A program made the position numbers and the translations under genes. From assembly GCA_017427285.1 (NCBI GenBank), contig JAFRTE010000048.1, forward strand, positions 1 through 64,000: a stretch of DNA of 64,000 nt. The letters are read 5' to 3'. This DNA is from Clostridia bacterium (GTDB lineage Bacteria > Bacillota > Clostridia > Oscillospirales > UBA644). The number at the start of each line of letters is the position of its first letter. Position 1 is the first letter of the stretch. Shown here piece by piece: positions 51,656-59,676 of the stretch. The notes under the pieces are model-generated. The model was not told the origin of the DNA. It saw nothing but the letters and a program-made list of their open reading frames with translations, and did not search any database.

Positions 51656-51685
51656 GAATAATCCGCTTTTTTAAGCGGATTATTC
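51656..51685. terminator. Hairpin terminator of the GH101-like operon
   Basis: GAATAATCCGCTT and AAGCGGATTATTC form a 13-bp perfect stem with a TTTT loop, 22 nt after the stop of the minus-strand glycosidase gene. T-tracts follow only after a few bases on each strand (GCGTATTTTT on the minus strand). Confidence 0.7.
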
Positions 51686-51707: not shown

Positions 51708-53093
51708 TTATCCGACGTTTTCCGCCTTAATCGCAAGTGCCTGTCCGGGTTTTACGTCGAGGCAGACTTTTCCGTTTCTTATTTCAACGGTTTCAACAAA
51801 ACGGTTGCCGTCCATGGTAATCTCATAAACGTTTGCTTTCGTGAATTTCGCGTCGGGTATATCCCATTCGCCGCTCTTTCCTTCAGTTGAATACGCGACG
51901 AAAACGGTATCGGTTTGATCTGTCGGCAACAGAGCGTCGCCGCCGGATTTTACGATCGCTCCGTTTTTCTCTATCACTCCGTCCGCCGCGCGGCTCATAA
52001 CGCCGTCCGAGAAATAAACGGTATATCTCTTTTCTCCGAGCTCAGGATTTTCCTCGAATCTAAGACGTTCGTATCTGTTAAGATATGTATATGGAAGCTG
52101 ACCGAGGCAGAAATCACGGGTAAACTCGGGGACCCATTTTGTGCGGTCCGTTCCGTATTTCATCCAGATATCCTCGCCGTGAAGGGCGGGATAGAAGACG
52201 GCAAGCTGCGATCTGTCGGTAAACCTTCCGCAGTAAACCTTCGGCGAGATCGTCATGCAGTCTTCCATTGTCATATTGCTCAGCCACCACGCGGACGCAA
52301 TTCTGCCGAGAGCGTGTATCGGAGCGTCGTATCCGCCGCCCTCGGGAAGATTTCCGAGCTGCGAATACAGTTTGCGGATCGGATGACCGGGAGAGTCGGC
52401 GCGAAGCGGAAGTTCGCGGTATGTATATTCGGAAGTAACGTCGATACCGATCGAGGCGATATAGTCGATGATCTTATTACGCGCGTCGTTTTCCTCGTTT
52501 ACGTCAGTGCGCGGGTTTAAGCTTTCGGCTATACAGAAGTTATCGAGGTGAACGGTGCCCGCCTCGCGGACAGGCGTTGCGGCAACGAAACGGTCGAACA
52601 GTTTTTTGAAAAGACCGCTTTCCCAATACTGCTTATACGAGATCTTATATGCGTCTCTGCCGTTGAAAATCTCTATTACGGCCGGTTTTCCATCCAGCCC
52701 GTTTGCAACCGCGTTTGCGGCTACAATTTCGGCGTGAGAATCGTTGTCGCCGTATTCATCGGCGATATTGCCGTGAAAGCTTACGACGGTGTTGTATTTT
52801 TTCGCTTCTTCAAAAAGCCAGAAAAGACTTTCGGACGCGGTGGCGTCGCATTCGCGTTTAAGAAAAACGTTTACTTTTTCCATTTCGGGATAGCAGTCGT
52901 CATGTCCGAGTCCCTGCCAGCCGACAAGATAGACTATTTTCTTTATACCCTGAGTTATGGCGTCAACGGTTTTTATGACGTCAAGCGCCTGTTCGAACGT
53001 AAAGAACACTTCGCTTCTGTTGTTCGGAAAATCCGGTTTTGCCATAAAAAGCTTCATCCAGAGCGTTTGCGAATAGTCATAATTGTATTTCAT
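51708..53093 (-). CDS. GH101-like glycosidase (endo-alpha-N-acetylgalactosaminidase family fold)
   Basis: A protein of 461 residues with a TIM-barrel start (KKIVYLVGWQGLGHDD), an active-site strand VHLDNFCIAES with Asp184, and ITSEY-type GIDVTSEYTYRE with Glu222. In GH101 enzymes a nucleophile aspartate and an acid/base glutamate sit about 30-40 residues apart on neighbouring strands, which this pattern matches. A later HGEDIWMKYG and FCLGQLPYTYLNRYERL and a beta-sandwich end follow. It has no signal peptide and is far shorter than the multi-domain surface GH101 enzymes, so it would act in the cytoplasm. GGGAGGG precedes ATG 53093; the upstream ATG at 53132 has no site. Third gene after the SGNH esterase and XRE regulator. 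The substrate is not proven. Confidence 0.6.
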   Translation of the reverse strand: MKYNYDYSQTLWMKLFMAKPDFPNNRSEVFFTFEQALDVIKTVDAITQGIKKIVYLVGWQGLGHDDCYPEMEKVNVFLKRECDATASESLFWLFEEAKKYNTVVSFHGNIADEYGDNDSHAEIVAANAVANGLDGKPAVIEIFNGRDAYKISYKQYWESGLFKKLFDRFVAATPVREAGTVHLDNFCIAESLNPRTDVNEENDARNKIIDYIASIGIDVTSEYTYRELPLRADSPGHPIRKLYSQLGNLPEGGGYDAPIHALGRIASAWWLSNMTMEDCMTISPKVYCGRFTDRSQLAVFYPALHGEDIWMKYGTDRTKWVPEFTRDFCLGQLPYTYLNRYERLRFEENPELGEKRYTVYFSDGVMSRAADGVIEKNGAIVKSGGDALLPTDQTDTVFVAYSTEGKSGEWDIPDAKFTKANVYEITMDGNRFVETVEIRNGKVCLDVKPGQALAIKAENVG

Positions 53094-53115
53094 ATTTCCC
53101 TCCCGAATGATCGTT

Positions 53116-53436
53116 TTATTCGTAATATGCATTGATAAAACTTTTGATAATGCTTTCGAGATGCAGCAGTTTTTTCGGGTCGCAGCGGTTTAAAAGCCCC
53201 GCAATCGCGCCGTATTCTTCCGATGGCTCATTGCCGAAAAGGATCCTGTCCGCCGAAACTCCGAGGATTTCGCAGAGCAAAACAAGGCGTTCCGTGGAAA
53301 GACCTTTTTCGCCGCGTTCTATCTGATAAAGATATTTCTCCGTTATACCGAGCTTTTCTGCGAGCATGGCGCGTGAAAGCCCGTTTTTTTCTCTTGCATC
53401 AAGTATTCTTTCGCCGCACTCTTTTCTGTTGAACAT
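53116..53436 (-). CDS. XRE-family transcriptional regulator
   Basis: A protein of 106 residues: an N-terminal helix-turn-helix (ILDAREKNGLSRAMLAEKLG, then YLYQIERGEKGLSTE) and a C-terminal helical tail (LLHLESIIKSFINAY). It sits between the SGNH esterase and the glycosidase genes, 9 nt after the first and 22 nt before the second. As the only regulator in the divergent cluster 51.7-59.6 kb it is the natural candidate to control the shared promoter region. Confidence 0.85.
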   Translation of the reverse strand: MFNRKECGERILDAREKNGLSRAMLAEKLGITEKYLYQIERGEKGLSTERLVLLCEILGVSADRILFGNEPSEEYGAIAGLLNRCDPKKLLHLESIIKSFINAYYE

Positions 53437-53445
53437 ATCGGTTTA

Positions 53446-54060
53446 TCAGCCTTCGAGTATTTTGATTATTTCTTTCGCTATTACTCTGTGTCCCGCAGGT
53501 GAAGGATGAACGCCGTCGCCTGTGAATATTTCGGGCGCGGTCTCAACGGAAAGATTGTAGAAAATTCCGTCAAGCGGGATATATGCGTCGGCATATTTTA
53601 CCGAAAGAGCGCGAAGAGCGTCGATCTTCGGGTCGATATCGGGTCTCCAGGTGTCTTTTACCGTGCCGGTGGGAACTGCGAACGGTTCGAGAATTATGAG
53701 AGACGCGCCCGCGTCTTTTGTCTGTTTCATTATTATCTCGCAGTTTTTCGCATATTCTTCCGCGGAAGTGGGATCTGCGCTGTCAAAAGCGCGCCAAGTG
53801 TCGTTTATACCGATAAGAATAGTAACTATCGTCGGATTAAGATCGAGAGTGTCTTCTTTCCATCTTGCAACAAGGTCTTTTGAGCGGTTGCCCGAAATAC
53901 CTTTGTTTATAACCTTCATCGAAAGTTCGGGATAAAAGTTTTCGATATACTTTGCCACCATGCGCGGATATCCCTGTCCGAGCTGCTCAGGGTCGCCGAA
54001 ACGTCCCGCGTCGGTAATGCTGTCGCCCTGAAGCACCAAAACGCCGTTTTTTGTTAACAT
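53446..54060 (-). CDS. SGNH/GDSL hydrolase (carbohydrate esterase-like)
   Basis: A protein of 204 residues with the four SGNH blocks: LQGDSITDAG (catalytic Ser), NKGISGNRSKD (Gly), ILIGINDTWR (Asn) and the C-terminal DGVHPSPAGH (Asp and His). This subtype often removes acetyl groups from glycans. No signal peptide, so cytoplasmic. The ATG at 54060 follows AAGGAGG by 9 nt; upstream ATGs overlap that site. First gene of the minus-strand operon with the regulator and GH101-like enzyme. Confidence 0.88.
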   Translation of the reverse strand: MLTKNGVLVLQGDSITDAGRFGDPEQLGQGYPRMVAKYIENFYPELSMKVINKGISGNRSKDLVARWKEDTLDLNPTIVTILIGINDTWRAFDSADPTSAEEYAKNCEIIMKQTKDAGASLIILEPFAVPTGTVKDTWRPDIDPKIDALRALSVKYADAYIPLDGIFYNLSVETAPEIFTGDGVHPSPAGHRVIAKEIIKILEG

Positions 54061-54099
54061 AATCATATCCTCCTTAAAGAACATAAATGTTCATGATTT

Positions 54100-54128
54100 A
54101 TATTAGCACATTTTGACGGAAATTGCAA
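54100..54128 (-). promoter_or_regulatory. Promoter of the SGNH-XRE-glycosidase operon
   Basis: Read on the minus strand: TTGCAA (54128-54123), 17-bp spacer, TAATAT (54105-54100). Close by, ATAAAT and ATTTAT flank 7 nt between this promoter and the start codon, a possible regulator site. It is back to back with the plus-strand promoter at 54149. Confidence 0.6.
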
Positions 54129-54148
54129 TAGCAAAGACCGGGGATATA

Positions 54149-54177
54149 TTGACTTTTTAAGAAAAATATGATAAAAT
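54149..54177 (+). promoter_or_regulatory. Promoter of the GH63-like operon
   Basis: TTGACT (54149-54154), 17-bp spacer, TAAAAT (54172-54177), about 25 nt before the start codon. It lies 20 bp from the divergent promoter, so one operator could control both. Confidence 0.7.
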
Positions 54178-54201
54178 CCGAAACGGAAAGGCGGGATAAA
54201 A

Positions 54202-56013
54202 ATGAATTACGAAGAGCTGAAAAAGCAGACGAACCGCGGGTGGAACACATGGAACACTCTTAACGTTCTTTCATACTCGCATCTGCCCGAAGGATTCACC
54301 GTTAATCTTTGCATACGGGAATACAGCGAAACAAAAGTTTTACGCGAAAGCTTAATAGGAAGAAACGGCGAATACGACGAAAAGATCTTTCCCTCGTCGC
54401 GTTCTTACGACGGCAGCGTAACGAGCTTAAAACTCACTTTTCACGAGCTCGAGCTTGACGTTAAAACCGTTGCGGATAACGACGAGCAGATAATAATGAT
54501 CGAGCCTTTAAAACACGGACTTCGTATCCCCACGCTGATTATCGAAGCATGCCTGCTTTGGGGAAAAGAAGGATATATAGGTAAAAAAGACGGGAAGATA
54601 TTCGGCGTTTGCGGCGACAGAAGATTTGATATATACACAACTGCCGAGCAGGTAAACGAACAGCATACGCATTCGCTTTCGCCGTATATCGCAGTAAAAC
54701 TCGACAGAAAATTCGTTATCTCTACCCGTCCTTGCTCCGTTGAAGAGGCGGAAACTCTTTATGCGGCTGCAAAAGCGAAGCTTGACGGGGAAAACGCGCG
54801 ATACGGCGTTCATTCCGAAGCGTATACCGCAATGAAAACGTGTCTTGCGTGGGATACTGTCTACGAATGCGAACACGACAGAGTATGTTCGCCCGTTTCA
54901 CGCATATGGAATATCGGGTGGGGCGGCTACGTCCTTTTTGACTGGGATACTTATTTCGCTTCCCTTATGGCGTCGGAAGAAAACAAGGAGCTTGCGCAGC
55001 TTAACGCGATAGCGATAACTGAGGAGGTTACGGAAAACGGTTTTATTCCCAATTTCGGAAGCGCGAACGACTCAAAGTCGAGAGACCGTTCGCAGCCGCC
55101 CGTAGGGTCTTACGTCTGTATGGAAATATACAGGAAATGGCCTGAAAAATGGTTTTTGGAGCACGTATTTCCGACTCTCTTATCGTGGAACCGCTGGTTT
55201 GCCGCTCACAGAATGACAAAGGAAGGATATATGTGCTGGGGCTCTGATCCGTTTGAGCCCGTAAACGGAAGATACTGGGAAGCAAACAACGTTGACTGTA
55301 CGTTTGCCGGCGCGCTCGAAAGCGGACTTGACAATTCGCCGATGTATGACGGTCGCGGCTACGATAAAGAAAGGCATATCATGCTTCTTGCCGACGTAGG
55401 GCTTATGGGTCTTTACATACTTGACTGCCGCAGTCTTGCCGAAATCGCAAAAACCGTCGGAAGAGAAGACGTTGTAAGCGAGATCGAAGAGAGAAAGACA
55501 TTTGTAGAAAAAGCGCTCGAAACGCTCTGGGACGACAGTTTCGGTCTTTACCTAAACAAAGACCTTTCGGATGGCACTCTTTCAAAGCGCATATCGCCCA
55601 CCAATTTCTACGCTCTGCAGTCCGACCTTGTTACGGAAGATAAAAAACGCCGCATGATGGACGGGCATTTTTACAATCCCGACGAATTCTGGGGCGATTA
55701 CATAATACCGACGATTGCAAGAAACGATCCGGCATATCCTGATCAGACGTACTGGCGCGGAAGAATATGGGCGCCGACGAATTTCTTGGTATATATCGCA
55801 ATGAAGCATGCGGGACTGAAAAAGGAATGCGACGACCTTGCGAAAAAATCCGAAGAGCTTATTCTGAAAGAATGGCGCCTGCACGGCCACGTTCACGAAA
55901 ATTACAGCGGTGACGACGGCATGGGCTGCGGCGTAAACAACAGCGATAAGTTTTACCACTGGGGCGGACTGCTCGCATACATAGCGATCGACAACGACAG
56001 AAATAAACAGTAA
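54202..56013 (+). CDS. GH63/trehalase-like (alpha/alpha)6-barrel glycosidase
   Basis: A protein of 603 residues. A beta-rich N-terminal part (about 1-215) precedes a helical barrel with FDWDTYFASLMAS (about 250), a catalytic aspartate in SRDRSQPPVGSY (about 295), WGSDPFEP, the barrel YWRGRIWAPTNFLV and the second acid in HVHENYSGDDGMG (Glu, about 566). These are features of GH63 glucosidase/mannosylglycerate hydrolase-type enzymes. No signal peptide, so a cytoplasmic exo-glycosidase is expected. AAAGGCGGG precedes the ATG. First gene of the plus-strand operon. Confidence 0.85.
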   Translation: MNYEELKKQTNRGWNTWNTLNVLSYSHLPEGFTVNLCIREYSETKVLRESLIGRNGEYDEKIFPSSRSYDGSVTSLKLTFHELELDVKTVADNDEQIIMIEPLKHGLRIPTLIIEACLLWGKEGYIGKKDGKIFGVCGDRRFDIYTTAEQVNEQHTHSLSPYIAVKLDRKFVISTRPCSVEEAETLYAAAKAKLDGENARYGVHSEAYTAMKTCLAWDTVYECEHDRVCSPVSRIWNIGWGGYVLFDWDTYFASLMASEENKELAQLNAIAITEEVTENGFIPNFGSANDSKSRDRSQPPVGSYVCMEIYRKWPEKWFLEHVFPTLLSWNRWFAAHRMTKEGYMCWGSDPFEPVNGRYWEANNVDCTFAGALESGLDNSPMYDGRGYDKERHIMLLADVGLMGLYILDCRSLAEIAKTVGREDVVSEIEERKTFVEKALETLWDDSFGLYLNKDLSDGTLSKRISPTNFYALQSDLVTEDKKRRMMDGHFYNPDEFWGDYIIPTIARNDPAYPDQTYWRGRIWAPTNFLVYIAMKHAGLKKECDDLAKKSEELILKEWRLHGHVHENYSGDDGMGCGVNNSDKFYHWGGLLAYIAIDNDRNKQ

Positions 56014-56030
56014 TAGAAAGGATAAAAAAC

Positions 56031-56546
56031 ATGAAAGATTTTCTCGAACTCGCAGCTGAGAGATATTCCTGCCGCAAATTTTCAAACAAACCCGTGGAAG
56101 AAGAAAAAATACAGAAGATTCTTCATGCCGCAAGACTTGCGCCGACCGCAAAAAACGGTCAGCCGCAGTATATAGTTATAGTTAAGAGCGAAGAAATGAG
56201 AAACAGAATGAAGGAAGCATCGCCCTGCACCTTTGACGCGCCCGTGATATTCGTTATGTGCGGAGACGTAAAAGACGGCTGGCACGACCCGTATACGGGA
56301 AGATCGCGCGCGGAGATGGACGTTTCGATCGCAACAACGCATATGATGCTGGAAGCTTCGGATATCGGGCTGGGGTCAACGTGGGTTTGCATGATGAACC
56401 CGTATAAGGCGCACGAGATACTCGGTCTGCCCGAACACATATTCCCCTACTGCATGCTTCCCGTAGGATACCCCGCCGACGACGCGCGCCCGTCTGAACG
56501 ACACACCTCAAGAAGAGAAATATCCGAATTTACAAAAGAGGTATAA
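56031..56546 (+). CDS. Nitroreductase family FMN protein
   Basis: A protein of 171 residues with the FMN-binding start LAAERYSCRKFSNKPVEEE, RLAPTAKNGQPQ, and a C-terminal LGLPEHIFPYCMLPVGYP. The length is at the short end for NADH-dependent nitroreductases, as is common in clostridia. It starts 17 nt after the GH63-like gene and ends 4 nt before the beta-helix gene, so it is part of this operon, although a link between flavin reduction and glycan breakdown is not obvious. Confidence 0.9.
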   Translation: MKDFLELAAERYSCRKFSNKPVEEEKIQKILHAARLAPTAKNGQPQYIVIVKSEEMRNRMKEASPCTFDAPVIFVMCGDVKDGWHDPYTGRSRAEMDVSIATTHMMLEASDIGLGSTWVCMMNPYKAHEILGLPEHIFPYCMLPVGYPADDARPSERHTSRREISEFTKEV

Positions 56547-56550
56547 GAAA

Positions 56551-58695
56551 ATGGAAATTCGGGTTACCGAAAAAGAAAAGCTGACGGATGTTTTTAGCTC
56601 CGTAAAAAGCGGAGACACGTTATATCTCGAAAAAGGTGTTTACAGAGTTGACGGTCCGCTGGATATTTCGTCAAAATGCGATATTTCCGTTATCGGAAAA
56701 GGCGCAGTGATAACGGGCTGCACGGTAATTGACGGCGAGCGTGGAAAATACTGCGATTTTGCTTATTTGATCAAAACACGGCGCGGTCTTGACATACAAC
56801 AGCTTTTTGTCAACGGCAAAAAGTACGTTATGGCAAGGTATCCCGACGAACGGGAAAATGAAATACTCGGCGGATATTCCTCAGACGCGGTATCTCCCGA
56901 AAGGACAGCGCGCTGGAAAAATCCGTCTTCGGGCTATCTCAGAGCTCTTCACGACTGCGAATGGGGCGGCAACGATTATTTTATCGAAGGCAAAAACTCC
57001 GACGGCTCGCTTAAACTGCGATGGGTAGGCGACAACAACAGAGGAAGAGGTTTTCACGCCGAAAAGGTAACGGTCGAAAACATTTTCGAAGAGCTTGACG
57101 CGCCGAAAGAATGGTTTTACGATAAAGAAAACGGACTTTTGTATATTATTCCCGACGGGGACGACGATATACTTTCGGCAACTGTCGAGGGCGCCGTATG
57201 CGGCGAGATATTCAGGTTGGAAAACTGTAAAAATATCTCTTTTTCGGGAATCCGTTTTGAAAAGACAAAGCGCATGCTTTTTTGCTCGGAATACGAAAAG
57301 ATAACAAGAAGCGACTGGGCGGTTGCCCGCAACGGCGCAGTTTATATGAAAAACTGTGAAAACGTATCCGTTTCAGACTGTGTTTTCAGCGAGGTCGGCG
57401 GAAACTGCGTTTTTATAGACGGCAACAACTCGGATATCGAGATTTCCCGCTGCGATTTTACGTTCTGCGGCGCATCGGGCGTATGCATATTCGGAAATCA
57501 GGACTGCGTTAGAGATCTTTCAACGTGGGAAAATCACAAAACGGTTATCTCGGATCTTGAAAAGGGTCCGAAAAACAACCGTTATCCGAAGGATATACTT
57601 ATCAAGGACTGTTATTTTTACGACCTCGGCATTTACGAAAAACAGTCTTCGCCCGTAACGCTGAGCGTATGTTCACGCGTCACGGTTGACGGATGCACCT
57701 TACACAAAGTCCCCCGCGCTGGAATAAACATATGCGACGGTTCTTTCGGAGGACACAGGATACAAAACAACCTCGTTTTTGACACGGTGCGCGAAACCGG
57801 CGACCACGGACCTTTCAACAGCTGGGGCAGAGACAGATTCTGGTCGCTCGGAGGAGTTGACGGAAGCGGAAAAGACGGCGCGAAAAAACGACCGTTTGCA
57901 ACGCTTGACGCAGTTGAAACGACAGTTATCTATCACAATATGTTTTGCGGAAACAGAGGGTTCGGAATAGATCTTGACGACGGCTCGTCGAATTATCTGA
58001 TCGAAAAAAACTATTGCGTAGGCGTCGGGATAAAGCTTAGGGAAGGTTTTTTAAGAACAGTAAGAAACAATTTTGTTTTCAACGCTCCCCTCGATATACA
58101 CTGCACGTTTGAGAAAAACGACGACGTTATCGAAAACAACATCGTGGTGTCTCAGAATCCTTTGAGCATTTACGCACAAAACGCAGGTTTTACAACAAAA
58201 GCCGCAAACAACCTTTTTGTCGGCGCGTCTCCCGAAATACTGTCAAACGAACTTTTTTTAGATAACAAAAACTACGTCTGTCCGTCGGACGACGAAGCCG
58301 CGCTTTCGATGCACCCGAAAGAAATATTCTTTGAGCCGTTTTCGCTTGAATTCGGCAGAAAGGACAAACCGAAGCCCGAAACGGCGATAAAAAACGTTAA
58401 AAAATCCGTTGAAGAGAAAATCGCGGGCATGGTTTTATCCCTGCCTGACGATTCGGTCCGCTCCATGGCGGGACTTTCGGATTTCGAAGGAGCGTTTGTT
58501 AAGGAAACAGATCAGAATTCGCCTTTCTATAAGCTCGGGATACGGAAAAACGACGTTATAATCAAGATTAACGGTAAAAAAGTTATTTCTCCCGCAGACG
58601 TGGGAAAAACGGAAGAGATAAACACGGTTGTTGTATCAAGAGCGCAGAAAATAATTGAATTTACGGTTAAAGAGACAGAAAATGATAAAGGATAA
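56551..58695 (+). CDS. Right-handed parallel beta-helix protein with C-terminal PDZ domain
   Basis: A protein of 714 residues. The N-terminal part (KSGDTLYLEKGVYRVDGPL, QQLFVNGKKYVMARYPD) and a long series of short strand repeats (about 210-590; for example ENVSVSDCVFSEVGGNCVFI, DILIKDCYFYDLG) form a parallel beta-helix, the fold of several polysaccharide-active enzymes, including GH110-type alpha-galactosidases with a similar 'VNGK...ARYP' start. The last 80 residues look like a PDZ domain (FVKETDQNSPFYKLGIRKND, IIKINGKKV). No signal peptide is visible, odd for such a fold. It starts 4 nt after the nitroreductase gene. Confidence 0.8.
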   Translation: MEIRVTEKEKLTDVFSSVKSGDTLYLEKGVYRVDGPLDISSKCDISVIGKGAVITGCTVIDGERGKYCDFAYLIKTRRGLDIQQLFVNGKKYVMARYPDERENEILGGYSSDAVSPERTARWKNPSSGYLRALHDCEWGGNDYFIEGKNSDGSLKLRWVGDNNRGRGFHAEKVTVENIFEELDAPKEWFYDKENGLLYIIPDGDDDILSATVEGAVCGEIFRLENCKNISFSGIRFEKTKRMLFCSEYEKITRSDWAVARNGAVYMKNCENVSVSDCVFSEVGGNCVFIDGNNSDIEISRCDFTFCGASGVCIFGNQDCVRDLSTWENHKTVISDLEKGPKNNRYPKDILIKDCYFYDLGIYEKQSSPVTLSVCSRVTVDGCTLHKVPRAGINICDGSFGGHRIQNNLVFDTVRETGDHGPFNSWGRDRFWSLGGVDGSGKDGAKKRPFATLDAVETTVIYHNMFCGNRGFGIDLDDGSSNYLIEKNYCVGVGIKLREGFLRTVRNNFVFNAPLDIHCTFEKNDDVIENNIVVSQNPLSIYAQNAGFTTKAANNLFVGASPEILSNELFLDNKNYVCPSDDEAALSMHPKEIFFEPFSLEFGRKDKPKPETAIKNVKKSVEEKIAGMVLSLPDDSVRSMAGLSDFEGAFVKETDQNSPFYKLGIRKNDVIIKINGKKVISPADVGKTEEINTVVVSRAQKIIEFTVKETENDKG

Positions 58696-59644
58696 AATAC
58701 TTAACGCATATACCTCGCAGCTTTTTCGCCGCTACGACGACGAGGGATATCTGTATTATTATTCCGCGGAGGATTTCGACGGTCTGAAAAAAGAAAGCTT
58801 TGATTTCTTTTCTCCGCAGCAAAACAGACTGAAAGGGTATTTTTACAGCTACGAAAACCCTACCGAAGGAAGGATAATAATATTCGATCACGGTCTCGGC
58901 GCGGGTCACAGAGCTTATATGAAGGAGATCGAACTGCTTTGCAGACATGGTTTTATCGTATATTCATACGACCACACGGGATGCAGGGAATCGGAGGGAG
59001 AGAGCACAAACGGACTTTTGCAGTCGCTTGCCGACCTTGACAGCTGTATCGCGGCAATACGCGCGGAGAGCAAATACAAAAACTGCGATATTTCCGTTGT
59101 CGGACACAGCTGGGGCGGTTTTTCGTGCGCAAATATCTGTGCTTACCATAAGGATATTTCGCATATCGTGGTTATTTCCGGCTTTGTTTCGGCTGAAAAT
59201 GCGATATCACAGCTTCTGAGCGGACCGCTTATGTTTTTCAGAACGCCGCTTTATGAGCTTGAAAAGCAGGCGAACCCTAAATACTTTTCCGCAAACGCCG
59301 CGACCGCTTTGAAGGAAACAGACGCGAAAATATTGCTCGTTTATTCCGCAGACGACCCTCTCGTAAAAAAGAAAAATCATTTTGACGCGCTGAAAAAAGC
59401 GCTTAAAGACAGGGACAACGTAAAGTTTCTGCTCGTTGACGGCAAAGGGCACAATCCCAATTACACGCATACGGCAGTATGCGCGCTTAAAGAGTGTGAA
59501 GACGAACTGAGGAAACGGTTTAAAGAAAATAAACTCTCAACGCCGCAGCAGAGGGAAGATTTCAAAAACTCTTTTGACTGGGACAAGATCACGCAACAGG
59601 ATGAAAGCGTCTGGAAAGAAATATTTGAAGTATTGGATGCATAA
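58682..59644 (+). CDS. Alpha/beta-hydrolase, cytosolic
   Basis: A protein of 320 residues with a hydrolase core: IFDHGLGAGHRAYM, YDHTGCRESEGEST, nucleophile elbow GHSWGG (about residue 143), aspartate in YSADDPLVKKKNH and histidine in GKGHNPNYTH. It suits lipase/acyl-ester or glycan deacetylase-type hydrolases; the substrate is unknown. I choose ATG 58682, which overlaps the beta-helix stop by 14 nt; the frame is open to 58655. Last gene of the operon, ending at a terminator. Confidence 0.85.
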   Translation: MIKDKILNAYTSQLFRRYDDEGYLYYYSAEDFDGLKKESFDFFSPQQNRLKGYFYSYENPTEGRIIIFDHGLGAGHRAYMKEIELLCRHGFIVYSYDHTGCRESEGESTNGLLQSLADLDSCIAAIRAESKYKNCDISVVGHSWGGFSCANICAYHKDISHIVVISGFVSAENAISQLLSGPLMFFRTPLYELEKQANPKYFSANAATALKETDAKILLVYSADDPLVKKKNHFDALKKALKDRDNVKFLLVDGKGHNPNYTHTAVCALKECEDELRKRFKENKLSTPQQREDFKNSFDWDKITQQDESVWKEIFEVLDA

Positions 59645-59650
59645 AAAAAG

Positions 59651-59676
59651 GCGAACCGAAAGGTTCGCTCTTTTTT
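59651..59676. terminator. Bidirectional terminator with GAAA loop
   Basis: GCGAACC (59651-59657), GAAA tetraloop, GGTTCGC (59662-59668), then TCTTTTTT. The minus strand reads into CTTTTTTTAT. It ends both the glycan cluster and the dnaG-rpoD-MPP-HAD run. Confidence 0.92.

Follow-up and report, generated by a model that had tools for sequence, protein, structure and literature searches.

Glycoside hydrolases of families GH101 and GH141 have been described mainly from secreted enzymes, and Gram-positive bacteria are known to trim imported oligosaccharides in the cytosol; which task could be performed by apparently unexported relatives of both families is the question raised by seven open reading frames (51708-59644) in a 64,000-nucleotide stretch of Clostridia DNA (the window), which lies on one contig of a 2.2-Mb genome assembly. 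An earlier note on this DNA had proposed a cytosolic route for imported, possibly mucin-type oligosaccharides. With a probability of about 0.6, we consider the locus a divergent cytosolic catabolic module for deacetylating and trimming decorated oligosaccharides taken up by the cell, those containing fucose fitting best.

The seven ORFs form two divergent units around one common intergenic region, as the earlier note had described them (Table 1); the leftward unit runs in the order SGNH, XRE, GH101-type, and the rightward unit in the order GH63-type, nitroreductase, GH141-like with PDZ, alpha/beta hydrolase. Three genes most likely start downstream of the longest possible ORF start: the GH101-type gene at 53093 (vs. 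53132), the SGNH gene at 54060 (vs. 54084), where AAGGAGG precedes the start and the N-terminus (MLTKNG...) is as in relatives, and the alpha/beta hydrolase gene at ATG 58682 (vs. 58655), which overlaps the stop of the GH141-like gene. A Pfam scan of the seven genes found no transporter among them. A defence system was rejected as an interpretation, the PADLOC matches to the XRE protein being generic HTH only, as was mobile plasmid cargo, since a plasmid search with the beta-helix protein returned only Bacteroidota relatives at ~34% identity. The arrangement is undescribed in the open-licence literature searched, where its enzyme families are found.

Table 1. Genes and regulatory features of the divergent cluster, with positions in the window.
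Feature	Position	Strand	Evidence
Bidirectional intrinsic terminator, end of leftward unit	51656..51685	.	13-bp stem, T tail on both strands
GH101/GH129-type glycosidase, 461 aa, single catalytic module, unexported	51708..53093	-	PF12905 1.4e-7, above cut-off
XRE-family regulator, 106 aa	53116..53436	-	HTH_3 6.5e-15
SGNH/GDSL acetyl esterase, Axe2-like	53446..54060	-	PF13472 1.7e-23; PDB Axe2 3.8e-29
Operator-like palindrome GAACATAAATGTTC, leader of leftward unit	54079..54092	.	sole match in window, 0.06 expected
Leftward promoter TTGCAA-17-TAATAT with TGn	54100..54128	-	read from sequence; conserved in five genomes
Rightward promoter TTGACT-17-TAAAAT, extended TG	54149..54177	+	conserved in five genomes
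GH63-type (alpha/alpha)6 glycosidase	54202..56013	+	PF22422 2.5e-43; PF03200 2.5e-14
Nitroreductase-family flavoprotein, 171 aa	56031..56546	+	PF00881 5.5e-29; PDB 3h4o 3.5e-40
GH141-like right-handed beta-helix enzyme, C-terminal PDZ domain, unexported	56551..58695	+	profile vs. BT1002 8.8e-12
Alpha/beta hydrolase, GHSWGG serine motif	58682..59644	+	PF00561 1.5e-16
Bidirectional intrinsic terminator, end of rightward unit	59650..59669	.	8-bp stem, T tails

The apparent cytosolic location of the enzymes was borne out by hydropathy, which indicated neither a signal peptide nor a transmembrane segment in any of the seven proteins; their highest 19-residue hydropathy values range from 0.93 to 1.42, compared to 3.0 in the neighbouring SecE. 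On inspection, the GH101-type and GH141-like proteins of Bacteroidota proved to have N-terminal export signals, a difference that fits periplasmic use there versus cytosolic use here.

The GH101-like identity suggested earlier for the glycosidase of the leftward unit was upheld by the fold check. The GH101 domain PF12905 scored 31.6 bits against a curated cut-off of 25, a match that covers only residues 44-236 of the long ORF. The AlphaFold2 model, calculated from an alignment of 34 sequences (pLDDT 95.7, pTM 0.93), retrieved GH101 structures for all of its top 15 Foldseek matches (E 6e-20 to 2e-17), and superposed on GH101 structures with Z 27-28 over ~390 residues, followed by GH129 (Z 24) and GH36 (Z 17); GH129, represented by NagBb, ranked second to GH101 in both structure rankings. 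Counted from the methionine at 53093, the putative nucleophile D184 and the putative acid/base E222 are invariant in all 34 sequences and are located at the ends of successive strands in the model. In a profile alignment E222 matches the glutamate of the TE(Y/F) motif in the canonical GH101 genes L140 and L149, the acid/base position; in pairwise alignment D184 matches the VYLD aspartate of L149, the nucleophile position, but not that of L140. The catalytic residues of SpGH101 are D764 and E796. The modelled structure supports kinship with GH101, with a predicted GH101/GH129-type barrel in which the catalytic acids are present. The catalytic barrel, the beta-sandwich fold, and the Asp and Glu positions are in common with GH101/GH129 enzymes; GH101 proteins, however, are multimodular and 1100-2400 aa long, whereas the protein studied here has 461 aa; sequence identity is 14-18%. 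In its predicted location it resembles the cytosolic NagBb, which lacks a signal peptide and thus provides a cytosolic precedent (PMC7232152).

Many ruminant-gut Clostridia carry a relative of this gene (~55-64% identity) that is not accompanied by the other six; there it is mostly solitary and mostly not close to mucin enzymes, and some copies have MFS_2 or GH116 genes nearby. Two distant relatives are found beside GH29, GH95, and a GH110-like gene (L078) and beside GH35/GH36 (L073), and the Bacteroidota GH101-type genes accompany GH92, GH97, and GH28. Tandem pairs of GH101-type genes were seen at L075:802-3556 and in L080, L081, and L082; the Bacteroidota pairs adjoin SusC/SusD-like, GH92, GH97, or GH28 genes. 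In L056, L060, L063, and L070, a conserved gene pair lies behind the GH101-type gene and encodes a BspA-like leucine-rich-repeat protein (357 aa) and a ~620-aa protein; a GDPD-type gene sits between in L056 and L070. The ~620-aa protein has no Pfam match in L056, and a similar L059 protein matches the MFS_2 sugar symporter.

The beta-helix protein, which the earlier note had taken for a GH110-type enzyme, turned out to be GH141-like. Its 12-sequence profile finds BT1002 (Table 1), and its AlphaFold2 model (pLDDT 81) has the BT1002 structure 5MQP as best Foldseek match (E 2.4e-18), with Z 34.5 over 471 residues; hhalign gave 99.9% to three GH141-type genes. GH110 was rejected, with no GLAA-B match at E 1 and a far closer GH141 structure; the GH110-like neighbour genes in L077/L078 do show GLAA-B domains. 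NosD, alginate epimerases, PL6, and tailspikes reached Z 25-31 to the model, but were set aside since at most 354 residues aligned, the upper limit for all other listed beta-helices. The protein is named GH141-like, not GH141, because the GH141_M Pfam domain remained below its cut-off there (15.5 bits vs. 27, E 0.016); this domain had no match at 1e-8 in the window's own genome. D418 (ETGDHG) and D476 (IDLDDGS), invariant in 12 of 12 sequences, align with the CDAGG and IYLDEG motifs of the GH141-type L137. By their spacing (compare PMC10154630 and PMC12786026) and by alignment via L137, they are putative counterparts of D523 and D564, which BT1002 requires (PMC10154630).

The closest known system to this enzyme is BT1002 (PDB 5MQP), the GH141 alpha-L-fucosidase of the RG-II pathway of B. 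thetaiotaomicron. Both proteins have the right-handed beta-helix (471 residues, rmsd 3.7), a GH141-type N-terminal region, and two catalytic Asp; in contrast to BT1002, the Clostridia enzyme is unexported, carries a C-terminal PDZ domain, has 18% identity in the aligned part, and merely hints at the GH141_M insertion. Since fucosidase, xylanase, and endo-fucanase activities occur within GH141 (PMC12786026), the enzyme may have any of several specificities. A distant relative in Persicobacter adjoins an annotated alpha-L-fucosidase, GH30, and GH39. Two other relatives (L100:7562-9907 and L101:5294-7639) have ~58 extra N-terminal residues that by eye recall the end of a GIY-YIG domain, although Pfam reported none (L101 scanned); the L101 gene adjoins GH4 and GH3 genes.

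The GH63-like glycosidase of the earlier note was recovered by profile, PF03200 and PF22422 both being above cut-off. Its putative acid D377 aligns with GMDNSP of TTHA0978 and SGMDDYP of GluI, and its putative base E566 with YENYS of GluI; the GH63 acid/base residues are Asp182 and Glu419 (PMC6608630). Judged from these alignments, the enzyme keeps acid and base; the catalytic residues predicted for the GH101-type, GH141-like, and GH63-type proteins are thus all present. The (alpha/alpha)6 family, the ESGLDNSP acid motif, and the HENYSG base motif are in common with GH63, which includes mannosylglycerate/glucosylglycerate hydrolases, YgjK, and glucosidase I; unlike the known members, this enzyme belongs to its own subfamily, with relatives in 24 of 394 genomes of the order (7 in the genus, 17 outside).

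The predicted SGNH esterase displays the motifs GDSITD and DGVHP, and its nearest solved relative, Axe2, is an intracellular acetylxylan esterase (PMC4194401), in agreement with the cytosolic SGNH enzyme first proposed. In the Geobacillus hemicellulose utilisation locus, Axe2 is an intracellular SGNH acetyl esterase within a cluster for imported oligosaccharides, as proposed here; the neighbours of the Clostridia gene, unlike those of Axe2, are GH63, GH141-like, and GH101-type, and not xylanolytic. The nitroreductase is present in every genome that has the core genes described below; the alpha/beta hydrolase has no PDB relative at 1e-6.

Both promoters prove conserved when the intergenic sequences from five genomes in the genus are aligned; a consensus match by itself carries little weight, because promoter-like sites were found eight times where 10.8 were expected. 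The palindrome GAACATAAATGTTC lies between the leftward -10 element and the SGNH start. In G012 both of its arms are changed (GAACAAAATTGTTC) while the architecture is unchanged; it is imperfect or absent in G008, G006, and G011, the genomes without an adjacent XRE gene. A further match in L035, at the start of another ORF, was taken as chance. The occurrence of a perfect palindrome only where the XRE gene is present (two vs. three genomes) fits XRE binding, and the regulator probably represses the leftward unit at this putative operator. The previously claimed control by one XRE regulator is nevertheless weakly supported, as these three genomes lack XRE at the locus.

In sister species the genes stand in the same order and their proteins have 57-96% identity; the module is confined to one genus, where five genomes have all seven genes or nearly all. 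It occurs on one contig in G008 (without XRE) and G012, and is split across two contigs in G007 and G013. G006 and G011 have a four-gene core of SGNH, GH63-type, nitroreductase, and GH141-like genes; in G006 a contig break separates the SGNH gene and part of a GH63-type gene from the rest, and a GH95 gene directly follows the GH141-like gene. The GH63-type gene of G006 also looks tandemly duplicated across the contig break (L032:1618-3951, L032:8669-8977; L033:3-1226). In G011 the GH101-type gene, 60% identical, is found elsewhere in the genome. The XRE gene is conserved in G012 and G013 and partly in G007 (contig end), and the alpha/beta hydrolase in G007, G008, G011, G012, and G013. In the window's clade the module lies between secE-nusG and NagD-rpoD-dnaG; one flank varies between species, the secE flank of G006 consisting of unrelated genes. 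In other genera of the family the GH101-type and GH141-like proteins had no match and the GH63-type protein only weak ones; order-wide, GH141-like relatives occur in 11 of 394 genomes (7 in the genus, 4 outside). An order-wide neighbourhood was rejected, as the GH63-type and GH141-like relatives outside the genus stand beside other genes wherever flanks were read. The neighbourhood conservation implied earlier holds among relatives within the genus but stops at its limits, and the GH101-type gene can be separated from the other genes. The best explanation is a four-gene core that was joined by the GH101-type and XRE genes in a subclade of the genus; the module is real and under selection, with enzymes that are apparently intact.

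Within this module, oligosaccharides or glycosides bearing O-acetyl groups, and probably L-fucose, would enter through a transporter whose gene lies elsewhere. Acetyl groups would be taken off by the SGNH esterase; a branch of fucose or a similar sugar (or of pentose) would be removed, or serve as the cutting site, for the GH141-like enzyme; the GH63-type enzyme, acting with inversion, would remove a terminal sugar in alpha linkage; the GH101-type enzyme, acting with retention, would split an alpha-GalNAc/alpha-Gal-type residue or disaccharide off its aglycone; and the alpha/beta hydrolase would remove one further ester. The nitroreductase may act on a released redox-active aglycone or be a passenger; it does not fit well in a pure glycan route. 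The best guess for the substrate, fucose-containing decorated oligosaccharides, is suggested by association, since the own genome encodes L-fucose isomerase and three GH95 enzymes in which no signal peptide is visible (the gene for one adjoins that of an MFS_2 sugar symporter), since G006 has its GH95 gene right behind the GH141-like one, and since distant relatives of the GH141-like and GH101-type enzymes are found beside fucosidases and galactosidases. The lack of a transporter gene in the cluster and the several specificities known for each of GH63, GH101/129, and GH141 count against this explanation. Elsewhere in the own genome (L178:5689-12101, G000 contig C42), a tandem GH95 pair without visible signal peptide is followed by a 709-aa protein without Pfam match.

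The mucin-type substrate raised as a possibility by the earlier note would require that the GH101-type enzyme frees core-1 Gal-GalNAc or GalNAc from imported glycopeptides while the other enzymes trim fucose and acetyl groups. Its closest folds, GH101 and then GH129, are both alpha-GalNAc-active, NagBb, the GH129 enzyme for GalNAc-Ser, is cytosolic (PMC7232152), and distant relatives adjoin GH110-like, GH29, GH95, GH35, and GH36 genes; yet the widespread ruminant Clostridia genes keep mostly apart from mucin enzymes, the Bacteroidota genes keep company with GH92, GH97, and GH28, the GH141-like and Axe2-like neighbours suggest plant glycans, and in G011 the GH101-type gene is detached from the core. 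The closest relatives, RG-II and pectin enzymes among them, suggest fucosylated and galactosylated glycans generally, so that mucin is a possible but not a favoured substrate, and a dedicated mucin route appears unlikely.

The same detachment in G011, the occurrence of the GH101-type gene without the other six in other genera, and the lack of XRE in G008 would be expected if the locus combined two or more independent functions, with a GH63/GH141-like/nitroreductase operon and an SGNH-XRE-GH101-type operon that have only the intergenic region in common. Joint action on one glycan gains no support from wider co-occurrence, because the genes are not neighbours outside the genus. Against such independence, the divergent SGNH-GH63 pair is kept in G006, G008, G011, and G012, both promoters persist in five species, and the genus retains the gene orders; we regard separate functions as improbable, to about the same degree as the mucin route.

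The divergent cytosolic module appears to be a variant of cytosolic oligosaccharide catabolism that is specific to its lineage, with two enzymes in little-studied unexported branches. A bolder and rather speculative proposal is that it represents an undescribed cytosolic pathway of ruminant-gut Clostridia, in which a PDZ-fused GH141-like enzyme, a minimal GH101-type enzyme, and an Axe2-like deacetylase would dismantle an imported O-acetylated fucosylated glycan, and each of the two glycosidases would be the founder of a new subfamily with a new specificity. Dozens of ruminant-gut genomes contain the compact, unexported GH101-type branch; this branch and the PDZ-bearing GH141-like one offer testable enzymes, and they suggest that part of the breakdown of fucosylated glycans in ruminants takes place inside Clostridia.
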